From Chryseobacterium sp. JUb7 (GTDB taxonomy: Bacteria > Bacteroidota > Bacteroidia > Flavobacteriales > Weeksellaceae): DNA of 64,000 nt. The stretch spans positions 248,001 through 312,000 of the forward strand of contig NZ_JANUFF010000003.1 of assembly GCF_024806495.1 (NCBI RefSeq), given 5' to 3'. The notes under the pieces were generated by a model, which saw only the letters and a program-made list of their open reading frames with translations, was not told where the DNA came from and ran no database searches. A program made the translations under genes and the position numbers. Positions 16,765 through 45,437 of this stretch are shown one piece after another. Every line of letters starts with the position of its first letter. Positions within the stretch are counted from its first letter, which is position 1.

Positions 16765-16790
16765 TTATAGATAATGAGAATTATATTAAG

Positions 16791-18372: not shown

Positions 18373-18400
18373 CATTCATATCAACTAAATTATATTTAAG

Positions 18401-18438
18401 TCACCCCAAATGCATTTTGTGTTTGGGGTGATTTTTTT
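18401..18438 (+). terminator. Intrinsic terminator
   Basis: Perfect stem TCACCCCAAA / TTTGGGGTGA (18401-18410 with 18422-18431) followed by seven T, 28 nt after the GLPGLI stop. Confidence 0.9.
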
Positions 18439-18526
18439 CTCAATTAGTATATTTAACATAATATGATAAAAACGCAGAAAAACACCATGAATAAAGAATA
18501 AATTGATGAAAAATATGTCGAAATAT

Positions 18527-18557
18527 TTGGATACTTATTTAAATTAGTTTATTTTTG
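18527..18557 (+). promoter_or_regulatory. Promoter of the small secreted protein gene
   Basis: -33 TTG at 18527-18529 and -7 TATTTTTG at 18550-18557, 20 nt apart, in agreement with the Bacteroidetes promoter consensus. The ATG follows 30 nt after the -7. Confidence 0.6.
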
Positions 18558-18587
18558 ATAAAAACATTTTAAAAAAATTATTTCGTC

Positions 18588-18866
18588 ATGAAAAAACTCA
18601 TTTTCGGATCATTACTAATGATCTCTATGGTTACATTTGCAAAAACTGCAGAAACAAATCCAACATCAGATTTCTTAAAAAAAGAAGACAAAGTTTTAGT
18701 TGCTAAAAAAACAATTCAAAGCGAGGGCAATGAAGTTAAAAAAATTACGGTAACGGCAAAAAAAGCGATTGACCCTTGCGTGATTGCTGTTGTAGTTCCG
18801 CCACCAACAAATTTGGATGCTTTATTAGCCTGTCTTAAATCAATATCTGATTCTGTACAGCCGTAA
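18588..18866 (+). CDS. Small secreted protein, unknown function
   Basis: A 92-residue precursor with a signal peptide (KKLIFGSLLMISMVTFAK). The mature part is Lys-rich, then ends in a compact hydrophobic segment with two Cys: KKAIDPCVIAVVVPPPTN followed by LDALLACLKSISDSVQP. The two Cys, 18 residues apart, could form one disulfide. I do not recognise the family. It has its own promoter and lies just after the GLPGLI gene, so a link to the TonB/GLPGLI pair (cargo or ligand) is possible, but it could equally be an independent envelope protein. Confidence 0.72.
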   Translation: MKKLIFGSLLMISMVTFAKTAETNPTSDFLKKEDKVLVAKKTIQSEGNEVKKITVTAKKAIDPCVIAVVVPPPTNLDALLACLKSISDSVQP

Positions 18867-18882
18867 AATATAAAGAACTATA

Positions 18883-18926
18883 GAACAAATTTAAGAGACT
18901 GGATATTTATATTCAGTCTTTGTTCA
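18883..18926 (+). terminator. Probable terminator hairpin
   Basis: Nested arms GAACAAA / TTTGTTC and AGACTG / CAGTCT around an AT loop, between the small secreted protein gene and the feo promoter. No long T-run follows, so termination strength is uncertain. Confidence 0.5.
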
Positions 18927-18935
18927 TTTAAACCG

Positions 18936-18958
18936 TTATTTAGATTAAATTTAAATAA
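18936..18958. promoter_or_regulatory. Near-perfect 23-bp palindrome upstream of feoAB
   Basis: Two 11-nt half sites, TTATTTAGATT and AATTTAAATAA, flank a single central A; 10 of 11 positions are complementary. It ends 2 nt before the -7 element of the feo operon, exactly where a Fur- or DtxR-type repressor would block RNA polymerase. The iron-repressor role is inference from position and symmetry. Confidence 0.65.
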
Positions 18959-18960
18959 CG

Positions 18961-18968
18961 TATATTTG
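18961..18968 (+). promoter_or_regulatory. -7 promoter element of feoAB
   Basis: TATATTTG matches TAnnTTTG and lies 19 nt before the TTG start of feoA, giving a very short leader. It sits beside the 23-bp palindrome. Confidence 0.65.
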
Positions 18969-18987
18969 CAGACACAAAAAGTAGGCT

Positions 18988-19242
18988 TTGAAAGAGAAGG
19001 ATTTACATAAGTTGAGCGGATTTCCCAAAAACAAAATGGGAAAAATTTTGGGGTATGATAACGATCATCTGAAGATGCCCAATAAGATCATTGAAATGGG
19101 TCTTCTTCCGGAGACATCGTTCAGGATTTTGTATCAGGCGCCCTTTAATGGACCAATGTATGTAGAGTTCGGAGATGAGAAAAGCCGTATCGCCCTTCGT
19201 GAAGAAGAAGGAGATTTTATTATTGTTGAAGAATTGAATTAA
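18988..19242 (+). CDS. feoA: Ferrous iron transport protein A
   Basis: An 84-residue SH3-like FeoA. The start is TTG at 18988; the next in-frame ATG would delete the first strand, and homology (LHKLSGFPKNKMGKILGYDN) begins near the TTG. The core reads KIIEMGLLPETSFRILYQAPFNGPMYVEF, with a last strand ALREEEGDFIIVEEL. FeoA binds FeoB in the cytosol and tunes its GTPase and transport activity. Its stop overlaps the feoB ATG (TAATG). Expression is probably iron-controlled through the palindrome at 18936. Confidence 0.92.
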   Translation: MKEKDLHKLSGFPKNKMGKILGYDNDHLKMPNKIIEMGLLPETSFRILYQAPFNGPMYVEFGDEKSRIALREEEGDFIIVEELN

Positions 19243-30612: not shown

Positions 30613-31101
30613 ATGGATATTTCTATTAATCTACACTCAATATTTATGCAACATTTAAAAGACATCCATATGGGTTCTTTGATCCGACAGAGGGTCATTG
30701 AATGTGAGCTCGATATTTTAAGAATTTGTAATTTCCTTAAATGTGATGAAAAAGCCATAGACGAAATGTATGTAAGCAGCTCACTGGATTGCGATCTGCT
30801 CTTGCAGTGGAGTAAGCTTCTTGAGTATGATTTTTTTAGAATATATTCTCAACATCTGATCTTTTACGCGCCCCAGGCGTCTTTCAAAAATAATACTTCT
30901 ACATCGGCTAATACAGCTTTACCGCAATTTCGAAAAAATATTTATACAAAAGAAATGATCGATTTTATTATAGATCTTATTCAGACCAACAGGAAGACAA
31001 AAATTCAGGTTATAAGAGAATATAAGATTCCTAAAACCACCCTTTATAAGTGGATGAACAAATACAATCTATCTGAAAATTTTGAAAAAGTAAATTCGTG
31101 A
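30613..31101 (+). CDS. Orphan HTH protein of transposase-like type (first of pair)
   Basis: A 162-residue cytosolic protein. The N-terminal half (residues 15-90) contains VIECELDILRICNFLKCDEK, an HTH-like helix pair, and WSKLLEYDFFRIYSQHLIFYAP, a block I recognise from a family common in Chryseobacterium and often labelled transposase. The C-terminal half ends with KIQVIREYKIPKTTLYKWMNKYN, a second HTH like IS3-type OrfA. No catalytic DDE domain or terminal repeats are nearby, so it is probably a domesticated DNA-binding protein. It is followed 16 nt later by a second HTH protein. Confidence 0.75.
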   Translation: MDISINLHSIFMQHLKDIHMGSLIRQRVIECELDILRICNFLKCDEKAIDEMYVSSSLDCDLLLQWSKLLEYDFFRIYSQHLIFYAPQASFKNNTSTSANTALPQFRKNIYTKEMIDFIIDLIQTNRKTKIQVIREYKIPKTTLYKWMNKYNLSENFEKVNS

Positions 31102-31117
31102 TAAAAAAATCAAATCT

Positions 31118-31468
31118 ATGATAAAACAAGACCCGAATCATAAAACGACTTCGCCGGATTATAAAAGGATTTTTAAGGATATGATAGAAATGAAGTATCC
31201 TGAAAAAAAAGAGATATGCAAAAATATACTCAGTAAAAAAGAACTGTCAAGTTTGGATATTTTAAGCCTTAACAGAAAAATATTTGGGAATGAAGATAAA
31301 GAAACGGAACAGTTTAATCAGTCTCATCGTTCATATGACAAGGAAACTATTCTTGAAATTCTTGATCATCAGAAAAAAAACAAACTGAATAATTCTGAGC
31401 TGGCAAGAGATCTCAAAATGAGTAGAAATACGATTGCCAAATGGAAAAAATTATTTTGTTCGAATTAA
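31118..31468 (+). CDS. Orphan HTH protein (second of pair)
   Basis: A 116-residue, highly basic protein. The N-terminal part (YKRIFKDMIEMKYPEKKEIC, then ILSKKELSSLDILSLNRKIF) is a helical unit often seen together with the preceding family; the C-terminus (NNSELARDLKMSRNTIAKWKKLF) is a clear helix-turn-helix. No catalytic domain. The 16-nt spacing implies co-transcription with the upstream gene. Probable regulator or remnant of a mobile-element accessory protein; a strong terminator follows. Confidence 0.75.
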   Translation: MIKQDPNHKTTSPDYKRIFKDMIEMKYPEKKEICKNILSKKELSSLDILSLNRKIFGNEDKETEQFNQSHRSYDKETILEILDHQKKNKLNNSELARDLKMSRNTIAKWKKLFCSN

Positions 31469-32081: not shown

Positions 32082-33497
32082 ATGTCAAGGGATGTTTTAT
32101 ATCTTAAAATTGCAAAATCCGTAACGGAGCAGATCCAGAGTGAGACTCTTCAGTTTGGAGACCGGCTGCCATCACTCAGAAGTGCGCAGAAACTCTATAA
32201 TGTAAGCTTAAACACTGTTAAACAAGCCTATATGGAGCTTGAAAGCAGGTCTCTGGTAGAATCAAGACCCAAGTACGGTTATTTCGTGAGTCAGACTTCT
32301 CAACGTAAGTTAGAGCTTCCTTCTGTTGCTAAAATGAAAATATCTGAAGGGAAAAATACGCCTCAGGATTTAGTGGATAAAGTATTCGGAACAATTGCCG
32401 GAACAGATGTGACTCAGTTTGCCCTGGGAATTCCCGGGAAAAGTTTTCTGCCTTTAGCCAAGCTTAAGAAATCGATCGTCAATGTTATAAAAAATAAAAA
32501 TGACAGCGGTACCGATTACGAACCCGTGCAGGGAAGTGTGCATCTTCGACGCGAAATGGCAAAATGGGCATTGGTTTTAGAAGGTAAAATTACGGAGGAT
32601 GATCTGGTGATCACTTCCGGAGCAATGAATGCAGTGTATAACTGTCTGATGGCTGTTACCAAACCCGGAGATTCTGTAGCCGTGGAAAGCCCTGCATATT
32701 TTGGGATATTGCAGGCTATTCAGTTGTTGGGATTAAAGGTGGTGGAAATTCCTACTCACCCTATTTTGGGTGTAGATTTGGATGAATTAAAGAAAGTTCT
32801 TCCCACATTATCGGCATGCTGTTTTGTGACCAATTTCAACAATCCGTTAGGCTTTCAGATGCCGGATGATAACAAGAAAGAGCTGGTAAGGCTGATTACA
32901 GAATATAATGTTCCTCTGATTGAGGATGATATTTACGGAAATCTTTATTTCGGGGCAGAAAGACCCAAACCATGCAAATATTATGATGAAGCAGGTCTTG
33001 TCATGTGGATAGGATCTGTTTCAAAGGCTTTGGCGCCGGGATATCGGGTCGGGTGGGTAGCTCCCGGAAAATTTAAAGAGAAAATAATCCGTCAGAAAAT
33101 TGTACAGACGGTTTGCAGCCCTTCACTGTATTCTGATGTAATTGCAGATTTTCTTGAGCATGGCCGTTATGATCATCATTTACGAACTTTCAGAAATAAA
33201 TTATACGCCAATTATCTTCAGATTCAAAAGTCTGTAGCGGCTTATTTTCCTGATAACACAAAGGTTTCAGGACCAAAAGGTGGGTTTATGCTCTGGCTGG
33301 AGCTTGATAAAAGAATCTGCACAGAAGATCTTTATGATGAAGCCTTCAGTCAGAAAATTAATTTTGCCCCCGGGAGAATGTTTTCTCAATACAACCAATA
33401 TCAGAATTGTATGCGTCTTAACTATGCCTTAGAATGGACAGATCGCGTAGAAAGTGATCTTGAAAAACTGGGTAAAATGATAAAAAACAGAATTTAA
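32082..33497 (+). CDS. MocR-family regulator: GntR HTH fused to aminotransferase fold
   Basis: A 471-residue MocR/PdxR-type protein. Residues 1-75 are a GntR winged helix (YLKIAKSVTEQIQSETLQFG, then RLPSLRSAQKLYNVSLNTVKQAY). Residues 100-470 are a fold-type I PLP domain: TSGAMNAVYNCLMAV, NFNNPLGFQMP, IEDDIYGNL, and the PLP lysine in WIGSVSKALAPGYRVGW. Such proteins sense PLP, GABA, taurine or amino acids and activate nearby metabolic genes. A 10-bp palindrome GTACATGTAC (32058-32067) lies just before its start. A GNAT gene follows 17 nt downstream. Confidence 0.93.
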   Translation: MSRDVLYLKIAKSVTEQIQSETLQFGDRLPSLRSAQKLYNVSLNTVKQAYMELESRSLVESRPKYGYFVSQTSQRKLELPSVAKMKISEGKNTPQDLVDKVFGTIAGTDVTQFALGIPGKSFLPLAKLKKSIVNVIKNKNDSGTDYEPVQGSVHLRREMAKWALVLEGKITEDDLVITSGAMNAVYNCLMAVTKPGDSVAVESPAYFGILQAIQLLGLKVVEIPTHPILGVDLDELKKVLPTLSACCFVTNFNNPLGFQMPDDNKKELVRLITEYNVPLIEDDIYGNLYFGAERPKPCKYYDEAGLVMWIGSVSKALAPGYRVGWVAPGKFKEKIIRQKIVQTVCSPSLYSDVIADFLEHGRYDHHLRTFRNKLYANYLQIQKSVAAYFPDNTKVSGPKGGFMLWLELDKRICTEDLYDEAFSQKINFAPGRMFSQYNQYQNCMRLNYALEWTDRVESDLEKLGKMIKNRI

Positions 33498-33513: not shown

Positions 33514-33999
33514 ATGAGTGATTCTAATAATGAAGTGATAATTGTGGAATATGAATCAGGATATCAAAAGGATTTCAGAAGATTGAATGAAGAATGGATC
33601 AGTAAATTCTTTAAAATGGAGGCAAGTGATTATAAGGCACTGGATCATCCTCAGGAATATATTCTCGATAAAGGAGGAAGAATTGTTTTTGCTCTTCTGA
33701 ATAATGAAGTAGTGGGAACCTGTGCATTGATAAAGTCCTCTGCTGAACCCTTGATATTTGAATTGGCGAAAATGGCAGTAAGCCCGAAAGCGCAGGGTAA
33801 AAAGATTGGATATTTAATCGGTGATGCATTAATTGATAGGGCTGAAAAGATGAATGCTAAAGAAATTTTTCTTGAAACAAATTCTTCTCTTGTTCCGGCT
33901 ATAAAACTCTACGAGAAACTGGGATTTAAACATGTTCCTACGGTAGACTCACCTTATGAGCGCTGCGATACAAGAATGCTTTTGAAGCTGGACCAATAG
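33514..33999 (+). CDS. GNAT-family N-acetyltransferase
   Basis: A 161-residue GCN5-related acyltransferase. Acetyl-CoA site: LAKMAVSPKAQGKKIGYLIGDALI (Q/R-x-x-G-x-G/A type), followed by EIFLETNSSLVPAIKLYEKLGF. It likely acetylates a small amine or amino acid. Only 17 nt separates it from the MocR gene, so it is probably co-expressed and may act on the metabolite sensed by that regulator. Confidence 0.88.
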   Translation: MSDSNNEVIIVEYESGYQKDFRRLNEEWISKFFKMEASDYKALDHPQEYILDKGGRIVFALLNNEVVGTCALIKSSAEPLIFELAKMAVSPKAQGKKIGYLIGDALIDRAEKMNAKEIFLETNSSLVPAIKLYEKLGFKHVPTVDSPYERCDTRMLLKLDQ

Positions 34000-34088: not shown

Positions 34089-35942
34089 CTATTTTTTAAT
34101 AAAAGTTTTTGAAAGAGATTTTGATGCCCCGATGATTTTGATAAAATAAAGACCGTTTGATAGCCCGTTGATGTCAATTTTTTCATCATAACTTCCATTG
34201 GAAGACTTTACTTTTTTTGATAAAACCAATGATCCTTTTGCGTCAATAATTTCAGCTTTCATTTCCTTTTCTTCAGATTTGAATTGAATATTGATGTTCT
34301 GAGAAGCAGGATTGGGATAAATTTTAAAATCATTAGCTGTAGCCTTGATGTCGCCGGTAGATAAGCTTCCGTTTTGACAAACAGGAATTCTATTGACTCC
34401 ATCTATACCCCATGAAGACTGAACGGGGATGCACAACCAGTTTAATACCGTTGGGAAATGATCTGTTTCTCTTGTTGTGGTCAGATAATTATAAATTTTA
34501 AAAGTATTTGCAGTATTGGCACTATAAGTTGGAGATCCAGTGATTGCTGCATTATTGTTATTTGGACTAGAGTCAACCAATGTGTTTCCGGAAGTCTGAT
34601 CGCACTTATAATTGGCCAGTAACTGATTATAATAAGGATGTGAAGAAGTAACATCCTGGTTGGCCCAGTTGATAATCACATCATTCGGAAGTGCTGAATT
34701 CCAGATTCTGATATCTTTAAAAGAAGCTGCTAAATTTAGATTGTAAGTATTCGTTCCATCCTGATTGATGGTTAATGGCAGCCCAGAGTCAATATTTCCG
34801 ATCATATTCATTTTAGCAAAAGTTACCGGAACACCGTCTTCGTACATTGTTACCAATCCGTCTCTGTCAAAGCTTACAGCGATATGTTTCCATTGGTTGG
34901 TTTCTACTTTTCCGCCTACCAGATCTATTCTGTTGGTTCCGTCACCGATATTCATTTTAAAAGTTTGCCCTGAATATCCTGAAATGACAAAACCTTTATT
35001 TTTTCCGTTAGCCCAGTTTTTATTGCTCAGCATCACCGGATCGCTTGAATAGGCTGCATTCGGTTTTACCCAGAATTCAATCGTGAAATCCTGACCAGCC
35101 CCAAAATTGAAAGGTGTCTGATTAGCAGGCTTTGCGTAGGTTCCTGCCGGAAAGCTCAGTTGGCTGAATGTTTTGCTGGATTCTAAAACCGTTTTACTGA
35201 TCTGCTGAGGCGTAAATCCGGGATTGGAATATACTGTGAAAATATCTCTTTCAGAAAGGCTTCCTCCACCATGTGAAGAATCTGTAGCTCCGTGGTCTGT
35301 CGTTAAAACAACCAGCCAGTCTTCATTATTATAAGTAGATCTTGCTTTCATAGCATTTACAATTTCACCGATATAAGTGTCTGTGGTCTGCATAGATGAT
35401 ACATATTGAGGCGTATTCGCATTAAATCCATAGGAGTGTCCCGCATGGTCTACATCATCAAAATCAACGAATAAAATATCAGGATTGTCATTTTGTAAAG
35501 CATTTACAGCTGCATTTTTTACCGCCAGATCACTTGCTAAATTGGTCTGTATGTCTGCATTTTGAATAATCTGGTCATTGATCGGAGCCCAATGAGCCAA
35601 AGAGATCGTTTTTAAATTCGGATTGTACGTTTCTGCTCTTGTCAGAAAATCGGGATAGTTTGTATAGTTTGGACTGGTAAAATTATTGTCCTGAACATTG
35701 TGTTTCGTATGCCAGACTCCTGTCAGCATGGTACTCCAGCCGTTTCCGCTCCAGGTTGTAGCGGCACAAAGCCCATCCAGAGAATAAATAGATTGATTGA
35801 TCAGATTGTGAATGTTGGGTGTATTGGAAGACATCATGACATCCGCGCGGCAACCATCAATACCGATAAAAAGAACTTTTTTAGTCTGAGCTCCAAAAAA
35901 GCAGCTCATTAAAACAGCCATTGAGAATAGTTTTGTTTTCAT
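34089..35942 (-). CDS. Secreted phosphodiesterase with LamG and T9SS sorting domains
   Basis: A 617-residue exported protein. Signal peptide ends FFGAQ; residues 20-250 are an alkaline-phosphatase-superfamily phosphodiesterase (nucleotide pyrophosphatase type: GIDGCRAD with metal Asp, ATTWSGNGW with the nucleophile Thr, VDFDDVDHAGH, TTDHGA). Residues 280-440 are a laminin-G-like concanavalin fold (FTIEFWVKPNAAY, QWKHIAVSFDRDG). Residues 545-617 are a type IX secretion sorting domain (FKIYPNPASQNINIQF to SKTFIKK). It is surface-exposed or released. Position at the end of a phosphonate-type cluster suggests it frees phosphonate or phosphate headgroups outside the cell. Confidence 0.92.
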   Translation of the reverse strand: MKTKLFSMAVLMSCFFGAQTKKVLFIGIDGCRADVMMSSNTPNIHNLINQSIYSLDGLCAATTWSGNGWSTMLTGVWHTKHNVQDNNFTSPNYTNYPDFLTRAETYNPNLKTISLAHWAPINDQIIQNADIQTNLASDLAVKNAAVNALQNDNPDILFVDFDDVDHAGHSYGFNANTPQYVSSMQTTDTYIGEIVNAMKARSTYNNEDWLVVLTTDHGATDSSHGGGSLSERDIFTVYSNPGFTPQQISKTVLESSKTFSQLSFPAGTYAKPANQTPFNFGAGQDFTIEFWVKPNAAYSSDPVMLSNKNWANGKNKGFVISGYSGQTFKMNIGDGTNRIDLVGGKVETNQWKHIAVSFDRDGLVTMYEDGVPVTFAKMNMIGNIDSGLPLTINQDGTNTYNLNLAASFKDIRIWNSALPNDVIINWANQDVTSSHPYYNQLLANYKCDQTSGNTLVDSSPNNNNAAITGSPTYSANTANTFKIYNYLTTTRETDHFPTVLNWLCIPVQSSWGIDGVNRIPVCQNGSLSTGDIKATANDFKIYPNPASQNINIQFKSEEKEMKAEIIDAKGSLVLSKKVKSSNGSYDEKIDINGLSNGLYFIKIIGASKSLSKTFIKK

Positions 35943-35969
35943 AAAGTAAGAGTTTTGAAAAAAGAAAAA

Positions 35970-36026
35970 GTTTACAAATAGTAATTTTAATTTAATAATT
36001 GTAAAATTAATTTACTATTTGTAAAC
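35970..36026. promoter_or_regulatory. Perfect 15-bp inverted repeat, candidate operator
   Basis: GTTTACAAATAGTAA (35970-35984) and its exact reverse complement (36012-36026) lie 27 nt apart, 28-84 nt upstream of the phosphodiesterase start. Closely related 15-mers occur upstream of the TonB operon (42389-42403) and of the HTH-cupin regulator (43127-43141), 13 of 15 bases matching in each. Confidence 0.65.
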
Positions 36027-36124
36027 ATGTGTGAACCCAATATTAATTATTTGATAATTAAATAGTTCTGATATATAAACTAAAATTGAGGCTGAATAAG
36101 TAAGCTAAAATTGAAAGAAGTAGT

Positions 36125-36793
36125 TTAAAGAATGTCTTCAGCCTCAGAAATTGTATTTAAAATATAATCGGGATTTGATTTTTCGAGTTCCGTTCGGGTT
36201 TGAGCTCCCGATAATACGGCGATAGTAAGCCCGCAGCCTGCATTTTTCCCTTCTTCAATATCTATGACGGAATCTCCGGCCTTTAAAACCGATTCGGGTC
36301 TAGTGATATTAAATTTCTCCATTGCAAGATGGATCATGGCGGGGCTTGGGCGGCTTTCTGAAACATCATCTGCAGTGATCATAGCATCAAAATGGACATT
36401 TTCTTTCCAGTTTAATCTATCTAAAAGTTGCTGTGCGATTTCACCGGTATATCCTGTATTCAGCACCACTTTTTTATTTTTTGACCTCATGCTCAGCAAG
36501 AAATTTTCAACTCCATCGATTGGTTTTACATCAAGATTCTGATAGGAAAGTTTTAACTGATCTGAAAAATTTTCAAAAATAGCGGATGCATCTTCTTCGT
36601 TTCCTCCAATTTCCTTTAATAAGCTGGTAATAGCTTCCAGTTTTTCCATACCGGCACAGACAGATAAAACTTTTTCTAAAGTGACATGGTAACCATAATC
36701 ATTTACAGAATTCATCACTGTTTTATACACCACATTATCTTCATCGATCGTTGTTCCGGCCATATCCAGAACCAATAATTCTATATTTTTCAT
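36125..36793 (-). CDS. Phosphonatase-like HAD hydrolase (PhnX-like)
   Basis: A 222-residue HAD hydrolase of the phosphonatase-like group (TIGR03351 type). Motif I LDMAGTTIDED has the DxAGT signature of phosphonoacetaldehyde hydrolase; Lys51 in CAGMEKLEAI aligns with the Schiff-base lysine region of PhnX; motif II/III appear as LNTGYTGE and SRPSPAM, motif IV as KAGDSVIDIEEG. Expected role: cleavage of the C-P bond of phosphonoacetaldehyde or a related aldehyde. It starts 5 nt after the FAD oxidoreductase stop, the partnership that defines this family. Confidence 0.9.
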   Translation of the reverse strand: MKNIELLVLDMAGTTIDEDNVVYKTVMNSVNDYGYHVTLEKVLSVCAGMEKLEAITSLLKEIGGNEEDASAIFENFSDQLKLSYQNLDVKPIDGVENFLLSMRSKNKKVVLNTGYTGEIAQQLLDRLNWKENVHFDAMITADDVSESRPSPAMIHLAMEKFNITRPESVLKAGDSVIDIEEGKNAGCGLTIAVLSGAQTRTELEKSNPDYILNTISEAEDIL

Positions 36794-36798
36794 TTAAT

Positions 36799-37953
36799 TT
36801 ATGCGTAAATTTTATCTATATTAAATTTTGAAAAGCCTCCGCTTCCTGTCATTCCTTTCCCTCCGATCCCGGTTATAATGTGAATATTCGGAGAAGGCAT
36901 ATGTTCAAAAATATCCTGGGTTTTGCATTGTGAATAAATTCCAAACCATCTTCTCTGAATTTCGTAAGTAGGTAAATCGATAATTTTTTTGGCTTCATTG
37001 ATCATAAATTCATCAATTTCCATATTAAGATCATAGCCAAGGTCATCAGCGTTTTTTGCATCAGCATATTCGTGTGAGTCGCCCAAAATAATTGATCCGT
37101 CAAGTGCCTGTTTGAAAAGAATATGAATTCCGAACTTCTTCTCGAAAGAATTTTTTTCCTCTGAAGCTTTAATGGGATGAAAAGAAGGACATTCTTCAAA
37201 AGCCTCGTATCTTCTGATGGAAAGACCTGTTAAAATATTTCCAGGAAGAGAATAAATTCCCTGTGGTTTTGTCTGCAACATCTGTAGCTTGCTGACTTCC
37301 AGATCACTTTCATTAAATACAGTTGGGTACAATGTTTTAAACTCATGACCGCCGCAGATGATGATTTTTGAAGCATTAAATTCGGTTCCGTCTGACGCGA
37401 TAGCTATACATCCGTTATCATTTTCATAAGTTTCGGAAACAGTGGTATTGTAGAAAATTTTTAATCCTGATTTTTCCTGCAAAAGGCTGTGGAGTTTTAC
37501 AATCATTTCTGCAGAATCCACGGATATTTCGTTTGGAAAAAACAGGCCTCCTTTGCAATAGTCAGAGCGTAAGCCATCATATTTTTGAATACAGTCGTTT
37601 TTTGATAAAAGAATTGATTTGTAATCGTTGTTCTTATTCATTTCATAAAGCTCTTCAATAAGCTGAAGTTCTTCATCGTTGGAGGCAATATACACAGAAC
37701 CGTTTTTTCTTATCGTTAAATCTGCCTGAGCATGAAGTTCATCATAAATTTTTAAACTTTCTTTTCCGAAATTCTGCCATTTAATGTCCATTCCGGAAGG
37801 GACAACCTGTCCGAAATTTCTAACCGTTGCTCCCTGAGGTACAGAATTTCTTTCCAGCAAGGCTACTTTAAGATTTTTCTTCAGCGCATGATAGGCATGG
37901 AATGTTCCTAATATTCCGCCTCCTACAACGATTAAGTCAAATTTTGTTGTCAT
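36799..37953 (-). CDS. FAD-dependent amine oxidoreductase (HpnW type)
   Basis: A 384-residue DAO-family flavoprotein: GGGILGTFHAYHAL dinucleotide fold (11-24), VPQGATVRNFGQV, and GIGGKGMTGSGGF near the C-terminus. It matches the TIGR03364 (HpnW) group, known for synteny with PhnX-like hydrolases. Oxidative deamination of an aminophosphonate (for example 2-aminoethylphosphonate or its N-methyl form) would yield the aldehyde used by the next enzyme. Start is 3 nt after the permease stop. Substrate inferred from context. Confidence 0.91.
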   Translation of the reverse strand: MTTKFDLIVVGGGILGTFHAYHALKKNLKVALLERNSVPQGATVRNFGQVVPSGMDIKWQNFGKESLKIYDELHAQADLTIRKNGSVYIASNDEELQLIEELYEMNKNNDYKSILLSKNDCIQKYDGLRSDYCKGGLFFPNEISVDSAEMIVKLHSLLQEKSGLKIFYNTTVSETYENDNGCIAIASDGTEFNASKIIICGGHEFKTLYPTVFNESDLEVSKLQMLQTKPQGIYSLPGNILTGLSIRRYEAFEECPSFHPIKASEEKNSFEKKFGIHILFKQALDGSIILGDSHEYADAKNADDLGYDLNMEIDEFMINEAKKIIDLPTYEIQRRWFGIYSQCKTQDIFEHMPSPNIHIITGIGGKGMTGSGGFSKFNIDKIYA

Positions 37954-37956
37954 TTT

Positions 37957-39264
37957 TTAACTATAATTTTTAATTTTCGATGAATCGAAATTGATATATT
38001 GATTATTACCCGATTTGGGTTTTGCTTTTCTTCGGAATGCCAGAAAAGCAATAACCGAAGACGTTAATACAATGGCTACAATGATATAATTCAGTTTAAT
38101 ATAAAAATTAAGCCATGAAGTATGGGCAAATCCGAAGTTTTTGTACAGTAAAATTAAAACGCTTCCCAGATAACCAAAAGAATCCACGACGTACACCAGA
38201 AAGCCTACATTTCCTTTAATATCAAAAGCGGCGATCATTCTGTCAAAATAAATTCCGTTAAAAGGAACATAACAGATATACATCCCAAATCCGGAAAGAA
38301 CCATCCACATAAACGGTGAAACCGACCCCGTCTGAAAAAGATAGGTTGAAAAGCCAACCAGAGAAACTCCTGCAAAAAGAATATAATGGTAATAAGCGAA
38401 AGCTTTTTTATTGTTTTTAACTTTCACCATGAAGCTCAAAATAAGGAGAACCATAATTGCAATGGGAATTTCCGTGAGGGTGAAGATTGAACTGTCGAAT
38501 TTGATGTGCAGCCCATCCCAGATTTCACGGTTGAAATTGTCTCTGAAATCTCTTAAAATAGTTAAGCTCACATATAAAAAAGTAATGCACACGATCGGAA
38601 TAAAAAACTGTTTGATGAGCTCTTTCCTGCCTTTTTTATCAAGTGGTTGTCTCTTATTTTTCAGTAAAATGTCCTCTTCCGTCGGCTGAGGGATTTTCTC
38701 AATAAGAAAACCAAATAATATTAACGGGATAATGAAAATCAATCCGGCAGAAAATGGCATCCAGAATTCTGAAATATTAAAGGTATCCATTAAAAATTTC
38801 CCGACAGATTTTGTAAACCCCGAAGAAACTACAAAGCTTGAGCATAAAAACAATCCGATAATTTCAGTGGTTTTTCTTCCTTCGATATAGGAGAAAACAA
38901 TTCCCCAGATCATTCCGAGTGGTACACCATTAATAAACATAAAAATAATGTTGTAAGGAGCCGGAACTACAGCAAATCCTAATAGGGAAAGCTCTGCAAC
39001 CGCAATGAAGGTGAATAAATAGAAGATTCTTTTTTCAGGTTTTAATTCTGAAATAAATTTTATTCCGATAAATTTTGAAATAAAATAGCCGACCGCCTGA
39101 GCAATTATAATTAAAATCTTATAATCGATCCCGAAATAAGAAAGACTTTCAAAAGAAGCTACTGTAAATGGTTTTCTAAAGCCATACATGCAAAAGTAGA
39201 TCCCAAAAGCAGCGAATGCTGCTTTCAGGGTTACCTGTGATTTTTTATTAATGGATTGGGCCAT
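37957..39264 (-). CDS. DUF5690 MFS-like inner-membrane permease
   Basis: A 435-residue membrane protein with about 12 helices. AAFGIYFCMYGFRKPFTVASF near the N-terminus and a GlpT/UhpT-like layout indicate an organophosphate/phosphonate-antiporter-like MFS transporter of the DUF5690 family. It likely moves the phosphonate substrate across the inner membrane after passage through the upstream TonB receptor. It lies 11 nt after the receptor stop and 3 nt before the oxidoreductase start, clearly in one operon. Confidence 0.88.
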   Translation of the reverse strand: MAQSINKKSQVTLKAAFAAFGIYFCMYGFRKPFTVASFESLSYFGIDYKILIIIAQAVGYFISKFIGIKFISELKPEKRIFYLFTFIAVAELSLLGFAVVPAPYNIIFMFINGVPLGMIWGIVFSYIEGRKTTEIIGLFLCSSFVVSSGFTKSVGKFLMDTFNISEFWMPFSAGLIFIIPLILFGFLIEKIPQPTEEDILLKNKRQPLDKKGRKELIKQFFIPIVCITFLYVSLTILRDFRDNFNREIWDGLHIKFDSSIFTLTEIPIAIMVLLILSFMVKVKNNKKAFAYYHYILFAGVSLVGFSTYLFQTGSVSPFMWMVLSGFGMYICYVPFNGIYFDRMIAAFDIKGNVGFLVYVVDSFGYLGSVLILLYKNFGFAHTSWLNFYIKLNYIIVAIVLTSSVIAFLAFRRKAKPKSGNNQYINFDSSKIKNYS

Positions 39265-39275
39265 TTTTAATTAAT

Positions 39276-42101
39276 TTAGAAATTTAATTTTATTCCCAGA
39301 TTACATCTTACACCATAATATTCAACCTGTTCCGGGCGCGTTTCATCTTTTCCGAAATGATAAATCAATGGTTTGTTCAGGATGTTATTGACATCAGCGT
39401 ACAGCATCAAGTGTTTTGTAAACTGGTAAGATCCTCCAAAGTCTAAGCTGCTGTATTTACCATAATAAGAATCGTTTAAATCTTCTTCGGCATATTCAAC
39501 TGCGTATTTCCCTTTATGGTTATAGGCCAGTCTGGCATTGAATCCCTTTTTCTCAAAGAATAGCTGAATATTATACAATTCTTTCGCCTGATAGGGCAGT
39601 TTTACCTTTCTTCCACTTGGTTTTTCCATTTCTGAGGTCATGAAAGTGGCGTTAAGCTGTGTTCCGAAATATTGTAAGAAGCCAGGCAGGAAATCAAATC
39701 TTCTGTTGATCCCCAGCTCAATTCCTCCCAACCAGGCTGCTTTACCATTATTCGGAGCGGTAAACTGTACTCCGTTCATTCCGTTATATGTCCCGATAAA
39801 AGAATCCTGAAAAATAGGATCTGTAATCGATTTGTAGAAAACACCACCACTTAAAATCCCGACATTTGAGAAATAATATTCGCCCATCAAATCAAAATTC
39901 AAAGAATAGGTGGGATTAAGGTTAGGATTTCCTCCTTTAAATTCGTTATCAGCTTCTATATAAGTTCCTCCCGGAGTCAAATCTCCAAAATTGGGTCTTG
40001 AGAACGTTCTGGTTGCTGCAAAACGAAGGTTTGTTTTATCGTTTAAAGCATACTTAAGGTGTAACATCGGCAACACGGCAAGATAATTTTTAGTGTTTTC
40101 AACCGGAGTTAAAACATCATCAATTACACTATAGCCTTTTACTTTTGTATGGGTATTTGATAATCTGATTCCTCCCAAGATGGTAATTTTCTCATTCACT
40201 TTGTAGGTTCCCATACCATAAGCGTCAGCATGTTTTTCGAATACGTCAAAATTTCGTCCTAATGCTTTGTTGTATTCCAGTGCTTCTGAATCTGCGGTGT
40301 TTATTTTCAAACTTCCGTTATTCTGAAACCAGAACTGATCCATTCCTCCGGTTGAGAGTACAGGTCCGAACGTATTGCCGATGTGGGCGTTCATTTCGCT
40401 TAAATATTTCGTTCCGTTCGGTTGTGAGGTGATGTATTGAGAATAGTCTGATAAAAGTGGGGCAGTTCCATTCGCCCAGGTATAGAAAATATCGGAGAAT
40501 CTTGCATTACGTTCTTTGTCACGATATTTAAAACCATATTTTAAAGTTAATTTGTCGGATGCATTAATTTCGTGATTGAAAGCAGCTACAATTTTATCTT
40601 TTTCTTCAACGAAAACTTTGTAAAATTCAAGATCGGTGAATCTCATTTGTGAAGCATCCATTTTGAAATTAGGATCGCTGTAGAAACCAAATAATGCATC
40701 AGGATCTTTATAATCCAGTTTTCCGCCATCAGCTTTCCAATAAGCTCTCGGTCCGTTTCCATGATCTGCAATATAATCAGGATTGATACCGACACCAGAT
40801 TGAGTATATTTAATGACATAATAGGAATTGTTCTGCTTATCAGGAATATTTCCATACTTAAACCGGTTATCGTAATAAGACAGGTCCCAGTCTATTTTTC
40901 CTTTCTTTACGGTGTGAATTCCGCCTAATGAAATAGACGTCAATTCTGTAATTAATAAGTTGTGAATATTTTGCAGCTCCACTCTTGCTGTGCCATTTCC
41001 GGCATTGAATTTATCAAATCTTATTCTGTGCTTGTAGTGGGTTTCATCATCAGAGAGAGTTCCGTACATTCCTTTTAAATATATTGTGCTCTTGGGTGAC
41101 AGCACATATTCGAATGCTGTATTGATTCCTGTTGTTTTTCTTACCCCGTTATAATCCCGGAGTTCCAGTCTGAATACTCCTTCATCACCACTTCTTCTTG
41201 CTTCAAAGTTATCCGTCGACCAGTTTCTGGTGAAATGTGCAAAGTTGAATAAATAGCCGAATTTTTTATCCTTTGTCCTGCCTCCGTAAAGCAATCCGAT
41301 GTTGTAAACTCCTTTATCAGATTTTGCATTATAGCCACTTCCCAAAGTTGCTTTGAATTCGGTTTTCATGGGTGGTGTTTTGGTGATGAAATTTACACCT
41401 CCACCTATTCCGTCTGCCTCCATATCGGGCGTGAAAGATTTATTAACATGAACGTAAGAAATCAGCTCTGTAGGAAAAAAGTCAAAAGCTGTAGCTCTGG
41501 AGGTGGTTTCCTCTTCTGCGGTTGGCAGCCTGTTTCCGTTAATAGTTGTCGATGCCCAAAATGGAGGAAGTCCTCTTAGAGAAACAAATCTTCCCTCTCC
41601 CTGATCTCTTTCAATTGAAACTCCCTGGACTCTCTGAACGGTTTCTGCAGCATTTCTGTCCGGTAACTTTCCGATTCCGTCTGAAGCAATGACATTGGAA
41701 ATATTGATTGCATTTTTCTGAATGTTTAATGCTCTGGCTTCCGTATTTTTCATCGTTCCGGAAACAACTACTTCATCGATGTTTTTTTGTTTCTGGGAAA
41801 GCCTTATACTTCCTAAATCTACTGTTTCTCCTGTTTTTATATCTAGATCGATATTTGAGGGCTCATAACCAATATAACTTATCTGTAGAATATATTTTCC
41901 TGTTTCCAGGTCGTTGATTGTGAATTTTCCGTCAACGTCTGTCGATGTATTTTTGGAAGTTCCGTTGATTTTTATGGAAGCTCCCGGAAGAGGCTGGCTG
42001 TCATCCAGCACAGTTCCTATGATTAATTGTTTTTGTGCTGATATAAAGGTGATGCAACAGACAAAAACAAGGATAAGCAAATTCTCTAAATTTGTTTTCA
42101 T
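39276..42101 (-). CDS. TonB-dependent receptor of the phosphonate-type cluster
   Basis: Start at ATG 42101 (KTNLENLLILVFVCCITFISAQ signal peptide), 941 aa; an 11-codon upstream extension lacks signal character. Domains: carboxypeptidase-regulatory-like (LIIGTVLDDSQPLPGASIKI), plug (INISNVIASDGIGKLPDRNAAETVQRVQGVSIERDQGEGRF in part), and a 22-strand-type barrel ending YYGVRCNLGIKLNF. The plug is of the TonB-box/DUF-type used for siderophores or organic ligands. It would admit the substrate across the outer membrane. First gene of the four-gene operon; a candidate operator lies 288 nt upstream. Confidence 0.92.
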   Translation of the reverse strand: MKTNLENLLILVFVCCITFISAQKQLIIGTVLDDSQPLPGASIKINGTSKNTSTDVDGKFTINDLETGKYILQISYIGYEPSNIDLDIKTGETVDLGSIRLSQKQKNIDEVVVSGTMKNTEARALNIQKNAINISNVIASDGIGKLPDRNAAETVQRVQGVSIERDQGEGRFVSLRGLPPFWASTTINGNRLPTAEEETTSRATAFDFFPTELISYVHVNKSFTPDMEADGIGGGVNFITKTPPMKTEFKATLGSGYNAKSDKGVYNIGLLYGGRTKDKKFGYLFNFAHFTRNWSTDNFEARRSGDEGVFRLELRDYNGVRKTTGINTAFEYVLSPKSTIYLKGMYGTLSDDETHYKHRIRFDKFNAGNGTARVELQNIHNLLITELTSISLGGIHTVKKGKIDWDLSYYDNRFKYGNIPDKQNNSYYVIKYTQSGVGINPDYIADHGNGPRAYWKADGGKLDYKDPDALFGFYSDPNFKMDASQMRFTDLEFYKVFVEEKDKIVAAFNHEINASDKLTLKYGFKYRDKERNARFSDIFYTWANGTAPLLSDYSQYITSQPNGTKYLSEMNAHIGNTFGPVLSTGGMDQFWFQNNGSLKINTADSEALEYNKALGRNFDVFEKHADAYGMGTYKVNEKITILGGIRLSNTHTKVKGYSVIDDVLTPVENTKNYLAVLPMLHLKYALNDKTNLRFAATRTFSRPNFGDLTPGGTYIEADNEFKGGNPNLNPTYSLNFDLMGEYYFSNVGILSGGVFYKSITDPIFQDSFIGTYNGMNGVQFTAPNNGKAAWLGGIELGINRRFDFLPGFLQYFGTQLNATFMTSEMEKPSGRKVKLPYQAKELYNIQLFFEKKGFNARLAYNHKGKYAVEYAEEDLNDSYYGKYSSLDFGGSYQFTKHLMLYADVNNILNKPLIYHFGKDETRPEQVEYYGVRCNLGIKLNF

Positions 42102-42480
42102 TTTTACAAATATTAAATTTTTTATGCAAATCAACTTAATAATTTTAATATATGTAATAATTTTATGTTAAGTAATGATTAATAATTGATAAGAGTTTGT
42201 TAAGCAGATTTTACGGACGAATTTTATCTGTAAAAATTAAAAATCCATATCAAATGGGCATTTAAAAGGGGTTTTGGTGAATTTTAAGAATAGCTTTTAC
42301 GTTTAAGTAGTGTATCGCTTTTATTGAAAATAGTAGAATTTTTGATTAACGATACGTTAATTTTAACCTTGCTCAAAAATGAGAAAGTTGAATATTTGTA
42401 AACTTTTATGCTAAAACAAAGTTTAGTTATTGTAAAAAATGAAAGGAATTAAAGATCAAAAAATTACTTTGAGTACATTA
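42102..42480. other. Control region of the TonB operon
   Basis: No gene. Features: a GTTTACAAA-type half site on the minus strand at 42389-42403; a palindrome TTAACG-ATA-CGTTAA at 42346-42360; and a -7-like CATTTTTG on minus near 42374-42381. If that -7 is used, the leader is roughly 260 nt long, enough for RNA-level control. Confidence 0.5.
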
Positions 42481-43056
42481 TTAATTTTGATTGGAATAGA
42501 AATAAAGAACAAGCATGACACAGCTTTCTTCACTTATGCTAACTGGGACATGTGGAAATTTTCCGTTAAAATATAAAGAATCGCCTTCTTTTAAAATAAC
42601 CTCCTCATTGTCAATGATGTATTTAACTTCGCCTTTTAAGATGTATTTAAATTCCCAGGCATCGGTGATTACTTTTTCTCTTTTAGAATTCGGTTCAAGA
42701 GTTAATAAAACAGCTTCGAATCCCAATGAGTGCAGGCTTTTGCTGAAGATATGCATGTATTTAAATCCTTCAGCTTCCACTTCTTTTTCGATGAGCTGCT
42801 GATTTTCTTTGGGAAGATGGATGAATTTGGCATTTGATTTTTTTTCAACGCCTTCAAAAAAATAGCTGGCATCAATTTCCAGAGACTGAATTAAATCCAA
42901 AAGTACAGGAAGAGAAGGGATGGTCCTTCCGTTTTCAATCCGCGAAACTAAACCGTTGCTTACATTGGCTCTGAAAGCCAGTTCATTGATGGTTAAATTA
43001 TTCTTTTTTCTGATGTCTTTTAATCTTTTGCCGATACCTATTAAAAAATCATTCAT
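42481..43056 (-). CDS. HTH (XRE)-cupin transcriptional regulator
   Basis: A 191-residue regulator: an N-terminal XRE helix-turn-helix (LKDIRKKNNLTINELAFRANVSNGLVSRIENGR) and a C-terminal cupin (FKYILKGEVKYIIDNEEVILKEGDSLYFNGKFPHVPVS). XRE-cupin proteins usually sense a small metabolite in the cupin and repress or activate an adjacent catabolic cluster, here the TonB/permease/oxidoreductase/hydrolase genes directly downstream. The GTTTACAAA-type motif overlaps the -33 of its own promoter, suggesting autoregulation. Confidence 0.92.
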   Translation of the reverse strand: MNDFLIGIGKRLKDIRKKNNLTINELAFRANVSNGLVSRIENGRTIPSLPVLLDLIQSLEIDASYFFEGVEKKSNAKFIHLPKENQQLIEKEVEAEGFKYMHIFSKSLHSLGFEAVLLTLEPNSKREKVITDAWEFKYILKGEVKYIIDNEEVILKEGDSLYFNGKFPHVPVSISEESCVMLVLYFYSNQN

Positions 43057-43102: not shown

Positions 43103-43135
43103 CAAATGTAATATTATTCTCAATAGGTTTACAAA
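43103..43135 (-). promoter_or_regulatory. Promoter of the HTH-cupin gene overlapped by a candidate operator
   Basis: On minus, -7 TACATTTG (43110-43103) and -33 TTG (43134-43132) are 21 nt apart. The -33 falls inside GTTTACAAA at 43127-43135, so binding there would block transcription. Confidence 0.55.
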
Positions 43136-43285
43136 GATTAAAATCAATTAATAAAAATTTATTGCAGCGGAAACGGATAGAGTAAAGGCTAAAAAGGGAT
43201 GGTGAAGAATTAATAAATGATATTTTGTAAGTTTCCGTCACCCGGCTTCCTTCTACCGGTAACTCTCTAACCCAAATAATTTTTC

Positions 43286-43310: not shown

Positions 43311-44021
43311 ATGAAAAAAATTATTCTGATCGAAGACGAAACGAGCGTTGTCTCTTTTATAAAAAAAGGACTTCAGGAAAACGGCTATGAAATTTCTGTT
43401 GCTTTTGACGGACGTACCGGTGTACAATTGGTGCAGTCAAATGATTTCGATCTTGTAATTTTGGATATCATGCTTCCTGAAATGAATGGACTGGATGTCT
43501 GTAAAGAGATCCGAAAAACCAATAAGCATGTTCCTATTTTGTTTTTAACGGCTTTGGGAACTTCAGAAAATATCGTTCTCGGACTGGAAAGCGGAGGCGA
43601 TGACTATCTGGTAAAACCTTTTAAGTTTATAGAATTGGTAGCCCGCGTAAAATCCTTATTGAGGAGAAGTAATGGAAGTGGAAATATTCAGGAAGTTGCA
43701 GAGCCGGAAATTGATAATGAACATGTTTTTCAGTTTTCAGATCTTATACTGAATGATTATACAAAAAAAGTGACCCGTGGAGGAGAAGAGATTTCCCTGA
43801 CTTCTACAGAATATAAACTTCTGATGTATTTTCTTAATAACCCTGAAAAAGTAATTTCAAGGGCTGAAATTCTAGATGCTGTTTGGGGGGTGAATTATGA
43901 ACTGGGAACTAATGTCGTGGATGTATATGTCAATTACCTAAGAAAGAAATTAGATCATCAGGACGATAATAAATTGATTCATACGGTGATAGGGATGGGC
44001 TACGTGTTGAAAAAACCATAA
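43311..44021 (+). CDS. OmpR/PhoB-family response regulator
   Basis: A 236-residue two-domain regulator. Receiver: IEDETSV acidic pocket, phospho-acceptor Asp in DLVILDIMLPEMNGLDVC, Thr in FLTALG and Lys in YLVKPF. Winged helix: ISLTSTEYKLLMYFLNNPEKVISRAEILDAVWG and TNVVDVYVNYLRKKLD. The cognate kinase starts 3 nt after its stop. OmpR-type regulators bind direct repeats about 11 bp apart; such an array lies at 45511-45567. Confidence 0.95.
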   Translation: MKKIILIEDETSVVSFIKKGLQENGYEISVAFDGRTGVQLVQSNDFDLVILDIMLPEMNGLDVCKEIRKTNKHVPILFLTALGTSENIVLGLESGGDDYLVKPFKFIELVARVKSLLRRSNGSGNIQEVAEPEIDNEHVFQFSDLILNDYTKKVTRGGEEISLTSTEYKLLMYFLNNPEKVISRAEILDAVWGVNYELGTNVVDVYVNYLRKKLDHQDDNKLIHTVIGMGYVLKKP

Positions 44022-44024
44022 TGG

Positions 44025-45437
44025 ATGTTTAATAAAGTGATCACAAATCAGACCAAAACGATGGTGCTTTTGATGTTGGTTTTTACCGCCATCATATTGT
44101 TGTTTAGCGGATTGGTTTATTTCTCGATCGTTAATTTTTCGCATCAGAGGTTTTATGAGTTGCTGAAAATCCGTACGACTACGATTGTACAGATTGAAAA
44201 AAGCAAAGAAGATCTTGATTTGCCTGAAAACTACGTCTTAAACAGTCTTAATGATGAGGAGCTTCCGATGGAAAAAGACTATGTTTTTGCCGTTCCTACC
44301 GATTCCAATTTTAAAAAAATCTCCCATGAGGTTCATATTCCCGATTATTTTTTCAAAAGCATTGTAAAAAATGGGGAAGCCAATTATAATGACAAAGAGT
44401 TCTATTATATCGGGCAGACTTTTAAATATGATGATAAAGATTATATTGCCATAGCCTCGGCCAAAAACCATTATGTGGTTTATTATTTGGGATTTTTAAA
44501 GAGAACATTGATTACCTGTATTGTGCTTTCACTCTTCTTTAGTATGATTTTTTCTTTTTATTTGTCTAAAACTTTATTCAGACCGATTTTAAAAATTACC
44601 GGGAAGGTAAAAGAGATAAGCTCGGAAAATCTCCATTTAAGACTTGAAGCTCAACCGGATAATAAAGAACTTAATGAGTTGGTAGATACCTTTAATGATA
44701 TGTTGAATCGTATCGAAACCTCTTTTGAAACTCAAAATCACCTGATTGGAAATGTGTCTCACGAGCTGAGAACACCGCTTACTTCTATCATGGGCGAAGC
44801 AGATGTTGCACTTTCTATCAGCAGAACCGCTGATGAATATAAAGAAACTCTGGAAGTCATTCTGGATGAAGCGGAAAAGCTTGATAAGAAAATCAAAGCA
44901 TTATTAATGATCGCCCAAACCGGTTTTGACGGAAAGATTCAGAAAATTGACAAGGTAAGAATCGATCAGCTGCTTTGGGATGTTATTGAAACTTTAAGAA
45001 GGCTGGATTCAAGAAACAATATCTATCTGGATATAAGTATGTTGCCGGATAACCCCAAAAAACTTAAAGTTCAGGGAAATGAACAGTTGCTGCATCTTGC
45101 CGTGACCAATATTATTAACAATGGCTGCAAGTATTCTAATTTTCAGCAGGTTAAAGTTTCATTGGGAGCGACAGATACCGATGTATACATCATTATAAAA
45201 GATAATGGCATCGGAATTCCGGAAGTGGAAATGAATAAAATTTATGATCCTTTCTTCCGGGCCTCGAATACCAAAAACTACGAAGGCTACGGAATCGGTC
45301 TTCCTTTGGCGAGAAATATTGTGAGGATGCACCATGGTGAATTGATTGTAAGTTCTCATGAAAATCAGGGGACAACGGTTCAGATGCGTTTTCCGAATTT
45401 TTACAGTATGATGATGCAGGAAGGAAAAGAAGTCTGA
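44025..45437 (+). CDS. Membrane sensor histidine kinase
   Basis: A 470-residue class I kinase. First TM helix at about 10-32, a roughly 115-residue extracytoplasmic sensor, second TM at 155-177 (TLITCIVLSLFFSMIFSFYL), HAMP, then HisKA with NVSHELRTPLTS and HATPase with NIINNGCKYSN (N box), DNGIGIPEVEM (G1), YGIGLPLARNIVRMHHG and the G2 box. Operon partner of the OmpR-type regulator. Signal unknown. Confidence 0.95.
   Translation: MFNKVITNQTKTMVLLMLVFTAIILLFSGLVYFSIVNFSHQRFYELLKIRTTTIVQIEKSKEDLDLPENYVLNSLNDEELPMEKDYVFAVPTDSNFKKISHEVHIPDYFFKSIVKNGEANYNDKEFYYIGQTFKYDDKDYIAIASAKNHYVVYYLGFLKRTLITCIVLSLFFSMIFSFYLSKTLFRPILKITGKVKEISSENLHLRLEAQPDNKELNELVDTFNDMLNRIETSFETQNHLIGNVSHELRTPLTSIMGEADVALSISRTADEYKETLEVILDEAEKLDKKIKALLMIAQTGFDGKIQKIDKVRIDQLLWDVIETLRRLDSRNNIYLDISMLPDNPKKLKVQGNEQLLHLAVTNIINNGCKYSNFQQVKVSLGATDTDVYIIIKDNGIGIPEVEMNKIYDPFFRASNTKNYEGYGIGLPLARNIVRMHHGELIVSSHENQGTTVQMRFPNFYSMMMQEGKEV

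Follow-up and report, generated by a model that had tools for sequence, protein, structure and literature searches.

Chryseobacterium sp. JUb7 carries a six-gene cluster that is likely to form a substrate-controlled system for scavenging aminophosphonates, reaching from the cell surface to the cytosol. The cluster lies in a stretch of 64,000 nucleotides (contig NZ_JANUFF010000003.1, positions 248,001 to 312,000; hereafter the window), where positions 34089 to 43056 are filled by six open reading frames (ORFs) on the minus strand. They encode a helix-turn-helix (HTH)-cupin regulator, a TonB-dependent receptor, a DUF5690 protein, a flavin adenine dinucleotide (FAD)-dependent enzyme, a HAD hydrolase and a phosphodiesterase (Table 1), the order and span already given in a preliminary description of this DNA. 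In the proposed scheme, the phosphodiesterase, exported by the type IX secretion system (T9SS), would cleave an aminophosphonate ester outside the cell, for example a phosphonolipid or phosphonoglycan headgroup. The TonB receptor would carry the freed headgroup, or a small conjugate of it, over the outer membrane, and the DUF5690 protein, a putative permease of the major facilitator superfamily (MFS), would carry it over the inner membrane. A PbfD-type flavin oxidase would convert 2-aminoethylphosphonate (AEP) and/or its N-methyl form to phosphonoacetaldehyde, which the PhnX-like hydrolase would split into acetaldehyde and phosphate via a Schiff-base lysine. The HTH-cupin protein would sense the substrate or a catabolite and bind GTTTAC-N5-GTAAAC arrays, with a spacing of about 20 or 41 bp, that precede both the receptor operon and the phosphodiesterase gene. 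The regulon, the transport role of DUF5690 and the action of the phosphodiesterase are predicted.

A scan with the FAD protein yielded 73 named loci, 63 of them from Chryseobacterium, in which the cluster genes were matched by tblastn; some loci were cut by contig ends. The receptor, DUF5690, FAD and HAD genes were located on one strand in 63/63 Chryseobacterium loci, with successive gaps of -1 to 11, -3 to 9 and -1 to 7 bp (extrapolated from the tblastn matches). The regulator gene, matched in 59/63, was separated by 293-1205 bp, and the phosphodiesterase gene, matched in 58/63, by 84-647 bp. The receptor is therefore a member of one tight operon with the catabolic enzymes, and the regulator and phosphodiesterase genes probably each have their own promoter. 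For the receptor, the ORF list gave a TTG start at 42134; an in-frame ATG is present at 42101 and is followed by a signal-like stretch. TIGR03364, the family of the FAD enzyme, was found in 31 of 197 genomes of the taxonomic family (3 of 33 genera) and in 33 of 395 genomes of the phylum (32 above the cutoff; 24 of 170 genera), indicating that the cluster is not universal among relatives.

Table 1. Genes of the cluster and operator-like sites in the window
Feature	Position	Strand	Remarks
HTH-cupin transcriptional regulator, 191 aa	42481-43056	-	PF01381 (HTH_3) and PF07883 (Cupin_2); predicted local regulator of the cluster
TonB-dependent outer-membrane receptor	39276-42101	-	TIGR01782; CarbopepD_reg_2, Plug and barrel
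DUF5690 inner-membrane permease (putative), MFS fold	37957-39264	-	PF18943; predicted aminophosphonate importer
FAD-dependent aminophosphonate oxidase (predicted), PbfD type	36799-37953	-	TIGR03364
PhnX-like HAD hydrolase	36125-36793	-	TIGR03351-like; predicted to cut the C-P bond of phosphonoacetaldehyde
Secreted phosphodiesterase, alkaline phosphatase superfamily	34089-35942	-	PF01663, Laminin_G_3 (PF13385), DUF4983 (PF16356), Por_Secre_tail (PF18962) and TIGR04183, all above cutoff
Three operator-like palindromes before the phosphodiesterase gene	35970-35986, 35990-36006, 36010-36026		20 bp apart; 2, 3 and 1 mismatches to GTTTACNNNNNGTAAAC
Operator-like pair immediately before the receptor ATG	42102-42118, 42143-42159		41 bp apart; 3 and 4 mismatches
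Two further operator-like sites upstream of the receptor gene	42387-42403, 42421-42437		2 mismatches each; the first holds an exact GTTTACAAATA
Single operator-like site upstream of the regulator gene	43127-43143		2 mismatches

The FAD enzyme scored 400.8 bits against TIGR03364 (cutoff 285.1). According to the available part of Zangelmi et al. (2023, PMC10590968), the PbfD enzymes of A. baumannii (PbfD1) and M. fucicola (PbfD2) oxidize N-methyl-AEP, and some of them AEP as well, to phosphonoacetaldehyde; PbfD1 carries the TIGR03364 annotation, and PbfD2 and PhnX make up a full pathway in an organism without PhnW. By analogy with these relatives, the oxidase of the window may turn AEP and/or N-methyl-AEP into phosphonoacetaldehyde.

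Domain and family scores upheld the family assignments of the preliminary description, with one shading. The hydrolase scored 215.3 bits against TIGR03351, just below the cutoff of 218.9, and 104.6 bits against TIGR01422 (PhnX; cutoff 220), so that by its profile scores it appears PhnX-like, below both curated cutoffs and nearer TIGR03351 than PhnX proper. Its best match in the PDB was the phosphonoacetaldehyde hydrolase 2iof. D10, K51, R148, D174 and D178 were invariant in 39/39 sequences, that of the window included, and among them are the HAD aspartate (D10) and the cap lysine (K51) of a phosphonatase; the latter was aligned by eye against the PDB chain with Lys53, which we take to be the Schiff-base lysine of PhnX. 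Scores below both phosphonatase cutoffs would also suit a cluster that uses phosphate esters such as phosphoethanolamine, freed by the phosphodiesterase and deaminated by the oxidase, with the HAD protein acting as a phosphatase; hydrolysis of P-O bonds is common both in the alkaline phosphatase superfamily and among HAD enzymes. We consider this highly improbable, because the lysine is conserved throughout, and to our knowledge has no role in ordinary HAD phosphatases, and because the partner genes PbfA, PhnW and Phn-HD, described below, are phosphonate-specific. The chemistry reported for TIGR03364 proteins, which acts on aminophosphonates, also argues against it (PMC10590968, available part). 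The conserved active-site residues suggest that the PhnX-like hydrolase cuts the carbon-phosphorus (C-P) bond of phosphonoacetaldehyde.

The genome of strain JUb7 (4.95 Mb, given as 99.98% complete) held no PhnW above the cutoff (best match 55.9 vs 400.8 bits), no PepM above the cutoff (55.5 vs 319.55 bits) and no match to PhnJ; neither the PhnWX pathway nor C-P lyase was thus represented by these markers. The oxidase would therefore be the entry step and would receive its substrate from outside, which suggests that the substrate is imported rather than made by the cell.

To describe the neighbourhoods of these genes across Bacteroidota, 45 regions were fetched, their genes were called by a simple longest-ORF script, and the products were clustered together with those of 12 named loci, giving 57 context loci. 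This way of calling genes hid at least one DUF5690 gene behind an ORF on the opposite strand (locus L200). Three groups were checked in all their members: Phn-HD (14/14 confirmed; TIGR03276, E <= 1e-30), PhnW (7/7; TIGR02326, E <= 1e-120) and PbfA (cluster c10, first labelled from one representative; 7/10; NF049939, E <= 1e-150). Further recurrent neighbours were labelled by representatives only: SusC, SusD, phosphoesterases of PF01663/PF00884 and of PF00149, an HpnZ-like dehydrogenase (one representative, below the cutoff at 298.2 vs 328.1), PhnA-like and PhnY-like proteins (c20 and c21; Pfam labels, one representative each) and a permease of the organophosphate:phosphate antiporter (OPA) type (c22; one representative, TIGR00881 247.5 vs 407.75). 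The SusC group was present in 18/57 and the SusD group in 20/57 context loci. L203 was considered as a phosphonate locus and not counted, its aminotransferase being only 26% identical to the representative of the PbfA cluster.

Among the 43 FAD loci outside Chryseobacterium, 28 had SusC, SusD or a receptor of the window type within four genes of the core, 25 had a phosphoesterase and 21 had both. Phn-HD, PbfA or PhnW occurred in 19 of them, or in 22 when weaker labels were added. The preliminary description had called TonB-coupled phosphonate uptake unusual; given these 28 loci, that remark needs restating. Moreover, Flavobacterium PusCD transporters adjoining phosphonate-degrading enzymes are already mentioned in the accessible part of an earlier study (PMC8115612).

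As a control, the FAD region of 20 genomes was compared with 40 hand-placed 19-kb windows elsewhere in the same genomes. SusC or TonB receptors were found in 15/20 FAD regions and 9/40 control windows, SusD in 12/20 and 2/40, phosphoesterases in 15/20 and 1/40, and Phn-HD in 10/20 and 0/40, contrasts that are upper estimates because the case loci supplied the sequences for the hidden Markov models. Receptors were readily detected in control windows as well, so bias is probably smallest in their contrast. In the same comparison no significant contrast was seen for PbfA (2/20 vs 0/40), PhnW (1/20 vs 0/40) or HpnZ (1/20 vs 2/40).

The upstream regions of the receptor and phosphodiesterase genes have the 11-base word GTTTACAAATA in common. 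In 1.31 Mb of DNA, comprising the 63 Chryseobacterium loci and the window, 145 exact copies were counted, of which 138 were upstream of a receptor or phosphodiesterase gene, 3 in the window and 4 elsewhere; exact copies preceded the receptor gene in 58/63 and the phosphodiesterase gene in 48/63 Chryseobacterium loci. When extended, the word became the palindrome GTTTAC-N5-GTAAAC. We searched for this palindrome in 55 distant loci that had not been used for finding it (L103 and L108 are 93-95% identical in the core, and no other pair reaches 90%). Intergenic DNA up to 400 bp upstream of cluster genes contained 47 sites at no more than 2 mismatches, a threshold chosen after a first scan at 3 mismatches, and 119 permuted half-sites gave a mean of 1.8 and a maximum of 7 sites in the same loci. 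Other spacers from 0 to 11 gave 1 to 8 sites each, making the spacer of 5 unique. At 3 mismatches, the scan counted 96 sites over the 25 kb that lie upstream of cluster genes, 79 over 91 kb of remaining intergenic DNA and 491 over 882 kb of coding sequence.

The regulator was matched in 26/57 context loci, and palindrome sites were found in 19 of 24 distant loci with the regulator vs 4 of 31 without it. Of the 27 distant loci with SusC or a TonB receptor, 13 had a site at no more than 2 mismatches before that gene. Such sites also preceded the genes for DUF5690 (6 loci), the hydrolase (4), the regulator (3), a PF01663 phosphodiesterase (3) and PhnW (1), where one site can count for two divergent genes. 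The sites form arrays about 20 or 41 bp apart, equal to two and four helical turns. A pair spaced by 40-42 bp (no more than 4 mismatches) was seen in 60/61 receptor promoters and 46/56 phosphodiesterase promoters of Chryseobacterium, and in 5/58 regulator promoters. On this pattern, the most economical interpretation is that the operator arrays are bound by the HTH-cupin protein, which in turn controls the receptor operon and the phosphodiesterase gene. Whatever the gene order, the common operator would connect the phosphodiesterase and the receptor with the catabolic genes. A cupin regulator with an operator of its own points to the substrate or a catabolite as a possible inducer, and not simply to phosphate starvation. 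The operator, the hydrolase lysine, the lack of a PhnW above cutoff in the genome and the Phn-HD, PhnW and PbfA neighbours indicate that the phosphonate pathway proposed in the preliminary description was largely right. A search confined to open-access papers, preprints excluded, gave no description of this operator or its regulator, nor of phosphonate transport by DUF5690.

The phosphodiesterase carries a T9SS sorting tail (TIGR04183, 46.4 bits vs cutoff 23). SprA, the machinery component searched for and which we take to be the T9SS translocon, was found in the same genome at 2044.7 bits (cutoff 200), as expected for a type A cargo protein. D29, S65, D165, H169, D216, H217 and H224 were invariant in 7 aligned proteins and are likely metal-site and nucleophile residues, assigned by hand to the positions of nucleotide pyrophosphatase/phosphodiesterase (NPP) enzymes. 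The AlphaFold model of this protein was poor (pLDDT 52.5) and was not used. The equivalent protein in L175 and L181 begins with a lipoprotein-like signal instead, which could be a surface address too. Release of an aminophosphonate headgroup by this enzyme would fit its location and its operator; we infer both this substrate and the ligand of the receptor. The phosphodiesterase might also be a neighbour with an unrelated role, such as the scavenging of nucleotides or extracellular nucleic acid, since it is probably transcribed separately and is absent or of another family in some loci. This is unlikely in view of the exact GTTTACAAATA upstream of it in most Chryseobacterium loci, the palindromes before it in 3 distant loci, and the phosphoesterases of several families near the core in 25 of the 43 FAD loci mentioned above.

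The receptor scored 490.1 bits against TIGR01782 (cutoff 310) and has both the Plug domain and the barrel of a TonB-dependent receptor. By family score it is not SusC (TIGR04056, 73.4 vs 368.25 bits), and no SusD was found among the six cluster proteins, which thus contain no SusC/SusD pair. Its operon, the regulon and the context across the phylum point to movement of the headgroup across the outer membrane. Alternatively, the receptor would import an intact phosphonate-bearing molecule (a phosphonoglycan oligomer, a phosphonopeptide or a small ester) that is cut at the surface or in the periplasm, and free AEP would not be its ligand. Distant lineages often have as receptor a SusC/SusD pair, the type known for uptake of oligomers. 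In addition, the linked phosphoesterases of group c8 mostly lack a lipobox (1/13 has one), and the 5 N-termini examined were signal-peptide-like; these enzymes may therefore act in the periplasm. The phosphodiesterase of the window, however, bears a T9SS tail, and a small ligand would suit a SusD-less receptor no less well. We regard import of an intact molecule as a tentative possibility, on the doubtful side, and retain import of the freed headgroup or a small conjugate as the preferred reading. In L177 (positions 3612-14384, genome G513), a single HAD/FAD/DUF5690 core is flanked by two receptors of the window type, 33% and 54% identical to that of the window, and by two regulator genes, an arrangement that looks like a duplication of the uptake part.

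The DUF5690 protein matched PF18943 at 539.5 bits (cutoff 25). Its AlphaFold model (pLDDT 85.7, pTM 0.85) showed an MFS fold, with human G6PT (SLC37A4) as the best structural match (Z 34.4, root-mean-square deviation 3.1 A over 361 residues) and GlpT lower in the list; a Foldseek list was likewise headed by G6PT, with GlpT at rank 35. MFS proteins of other families scored nearly as high as G6PT against this model, and the fold alone carries no information on the substrate. In a profile comparison with 4 linked OPA-type permeases, the probability was 77.9% and an invariant arginine of the first helix was aligned. No sequence match in the PDB was found up to E 0.1; NCBIfam gave no match for the window protein and none that was informative for 13 members. 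The permease reading therefore rests on fold and context, and DUF5690 is a predicted aminophosphonate permease. In the phylum, DUF5690 was found in 29 of 296 genomes (23 of 139 genera), and it lay within about 11 kb of TIGR03364 in 17 of the 21 genomes with both (counted by hand from coordinates). It also adjoins PhnW in L200, a locus without TIGR03364. The open-access search found no paper naming DUF5690.

Two sets of loci showed other combinations of these genes. L197 (positions 9210-19001, genome G320) has DUF5690 with PhnW, PhnY-like, PhnA-like, Phn-HD, a phosphoesterase and SusD, and only a partial match to the FAD protein; it looks like an alternative version of the same supply line. L166, L186 and L190 (genomes G540, G408 and G451) have the FAD protein, PbfA, PhnA-like and PhnY-like proteins and an OPA-type MFS permease, with no DUF5690 called. 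The OPA-type permease occurred in 4 loci, 3 of them without DUF5690, which suggests that the two permeases replace each other.

Besides the hydrolase scores and the inflated control contrasts, several observations weigh against the scheme as a whole or against parts of it. For 15 of the 43 distant FAD loci, neither a Sus protein (SusC or SusD) nor a window-type receptor was located within four genes. The phosphodiesterase gene stands outside the tight operon and was unmatched in 5/63 Chryseobacterium loci (one of them a 6-kb contig), and other phosphoesterase families replace it in other lineages. Twelve fetched loci had DUF5690 away from TIGR03364; 4 of these (L197, L200, L206 and L209) had phosphonate genes and 8 had no recurrent ones, so DUF5690 may not be restricted to phosphonates. 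No operator at 2 mismatches or fewer preceded the receptor gene in 14 of the 27 distant loci with SusC or a receptor, and the two sites of the receptor-proximal pair in the window are individually weak. In the JUb7 genome, the palindrome had 16 sites at 1 mismatch vs 13 for the reversed control, and exact GTTTACAAATA occurred 7 times (3 in the cluster), more rarely than the reversed control word (10); frequency alone therefore predicts nothing, and the signal lies in position. Control of the regulator over its own gene is weakly suggested, and 0/145 exact GTTTACAAATA cores were assigned to a regulator promoter.

Across the phylum, Bacteroidota may have phosphonate loci analogous to polysaccharide utilization loci (PULs), in which SusCD/TonB transporters, secreted phosphoesterases and DUF5690, acting as an exchanger of organophosphonates, supply a C-P pathway in the cytosol. 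Many of these loci would be controlled by one HTH-cupin family through the conserved GTTTAC-N5-GTAAAC operator, in response to aminophosphonates and not phosphate. We give this wider proposal an even chance.

The genes flanking the cluster were considered as further parts of it and left out: a MocR-like regulator (32082-33497), a GNAT protein (33514-33999) and a response regulator/histidine kinase pair (43311-45437). In the Chryseobacterium loci with a match (46 to 49 of 63), they were on the strand opposite to the operon, and in distant loci the two-component pair was only weakly matched (no more than 42% identity) and the MocR-like regulator and GNAT protein had no match. The two-component pair lies just upstream of the cluster and was matched there in 49/63 Chryseobacterium loci. 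At 30613-31468, two adjacent small ORFs of 162 and 116 aa have C-terminal parts that resemble similar helix-turn-helix segments by eye.

Phosphonates are estimated to make up 5-25% of the ocean's dissolved organic phosphorus (PMC9671461, available part), and the PhnD, AepX and AepP uptake systems act at the inner membrane (PMC8316502, available part). The cluster would explain how phosphonates pass the outer membrane in such bacteria and offers a testable route for this in a large phylum. It also provides DUF5690, an orphan family, with a first proposed function, and the operator may help to find further members of the regulon near HTH-cupin genes. The enzyme chemistry is already published for relatives (PMC10590968, available part); new here is a proposed PUL-like, TonB-coupled supply line joined to the PbfD-PhnX route. 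Its chief novelty is the pairing of regulator and operator, which recurs across Bacteroidota.

The cluster resembles the PbfD-PhnX pathway in having an FAD oxidase that would make phosphonoacetaldehyde together with a phosphonatase-like protein and no PhnW, and differs in that the available part of that work concerns the enzymes; a TonB receptor, a secreted phosphodiesterase, DUF5690 and an operator do not feature there (Zangelmi et al. 2023, PMC10590968). The hydrolase also differs, being nearer TIGR03351 than PhnX proper. The PusCD clusters of Flavobacterium likewise combine SusCD-like outer-membrane transporters with phosphoesterases in Bacteroidota (Lidbury et al. 2020, PMC8115612). In the accessible text, they are defined by induction on phosphate depletion, whereas the present cluster lacks SusD, has a cupin regulator for which an operator is predicted, and carries a C-P pathway inside the operon. 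The AEP permease AepP is, according to the available part of Murphy et al. (2021, PMC8316502), a GlpT-related MFS protein, as DUF5690 has an MFS fold closest to G6PT. DUF5690 differs in being a separate Pfam family, and its window member has no NCBIfam match. In SusC/SusD PULs, a surface hydrolase, TonB-coupled import, intracellular breakdown and a local regulator act together. The present cluster would share that four-part layout, but its predicted substrate is a phosphonate and it contains no glycoside hydrolase.

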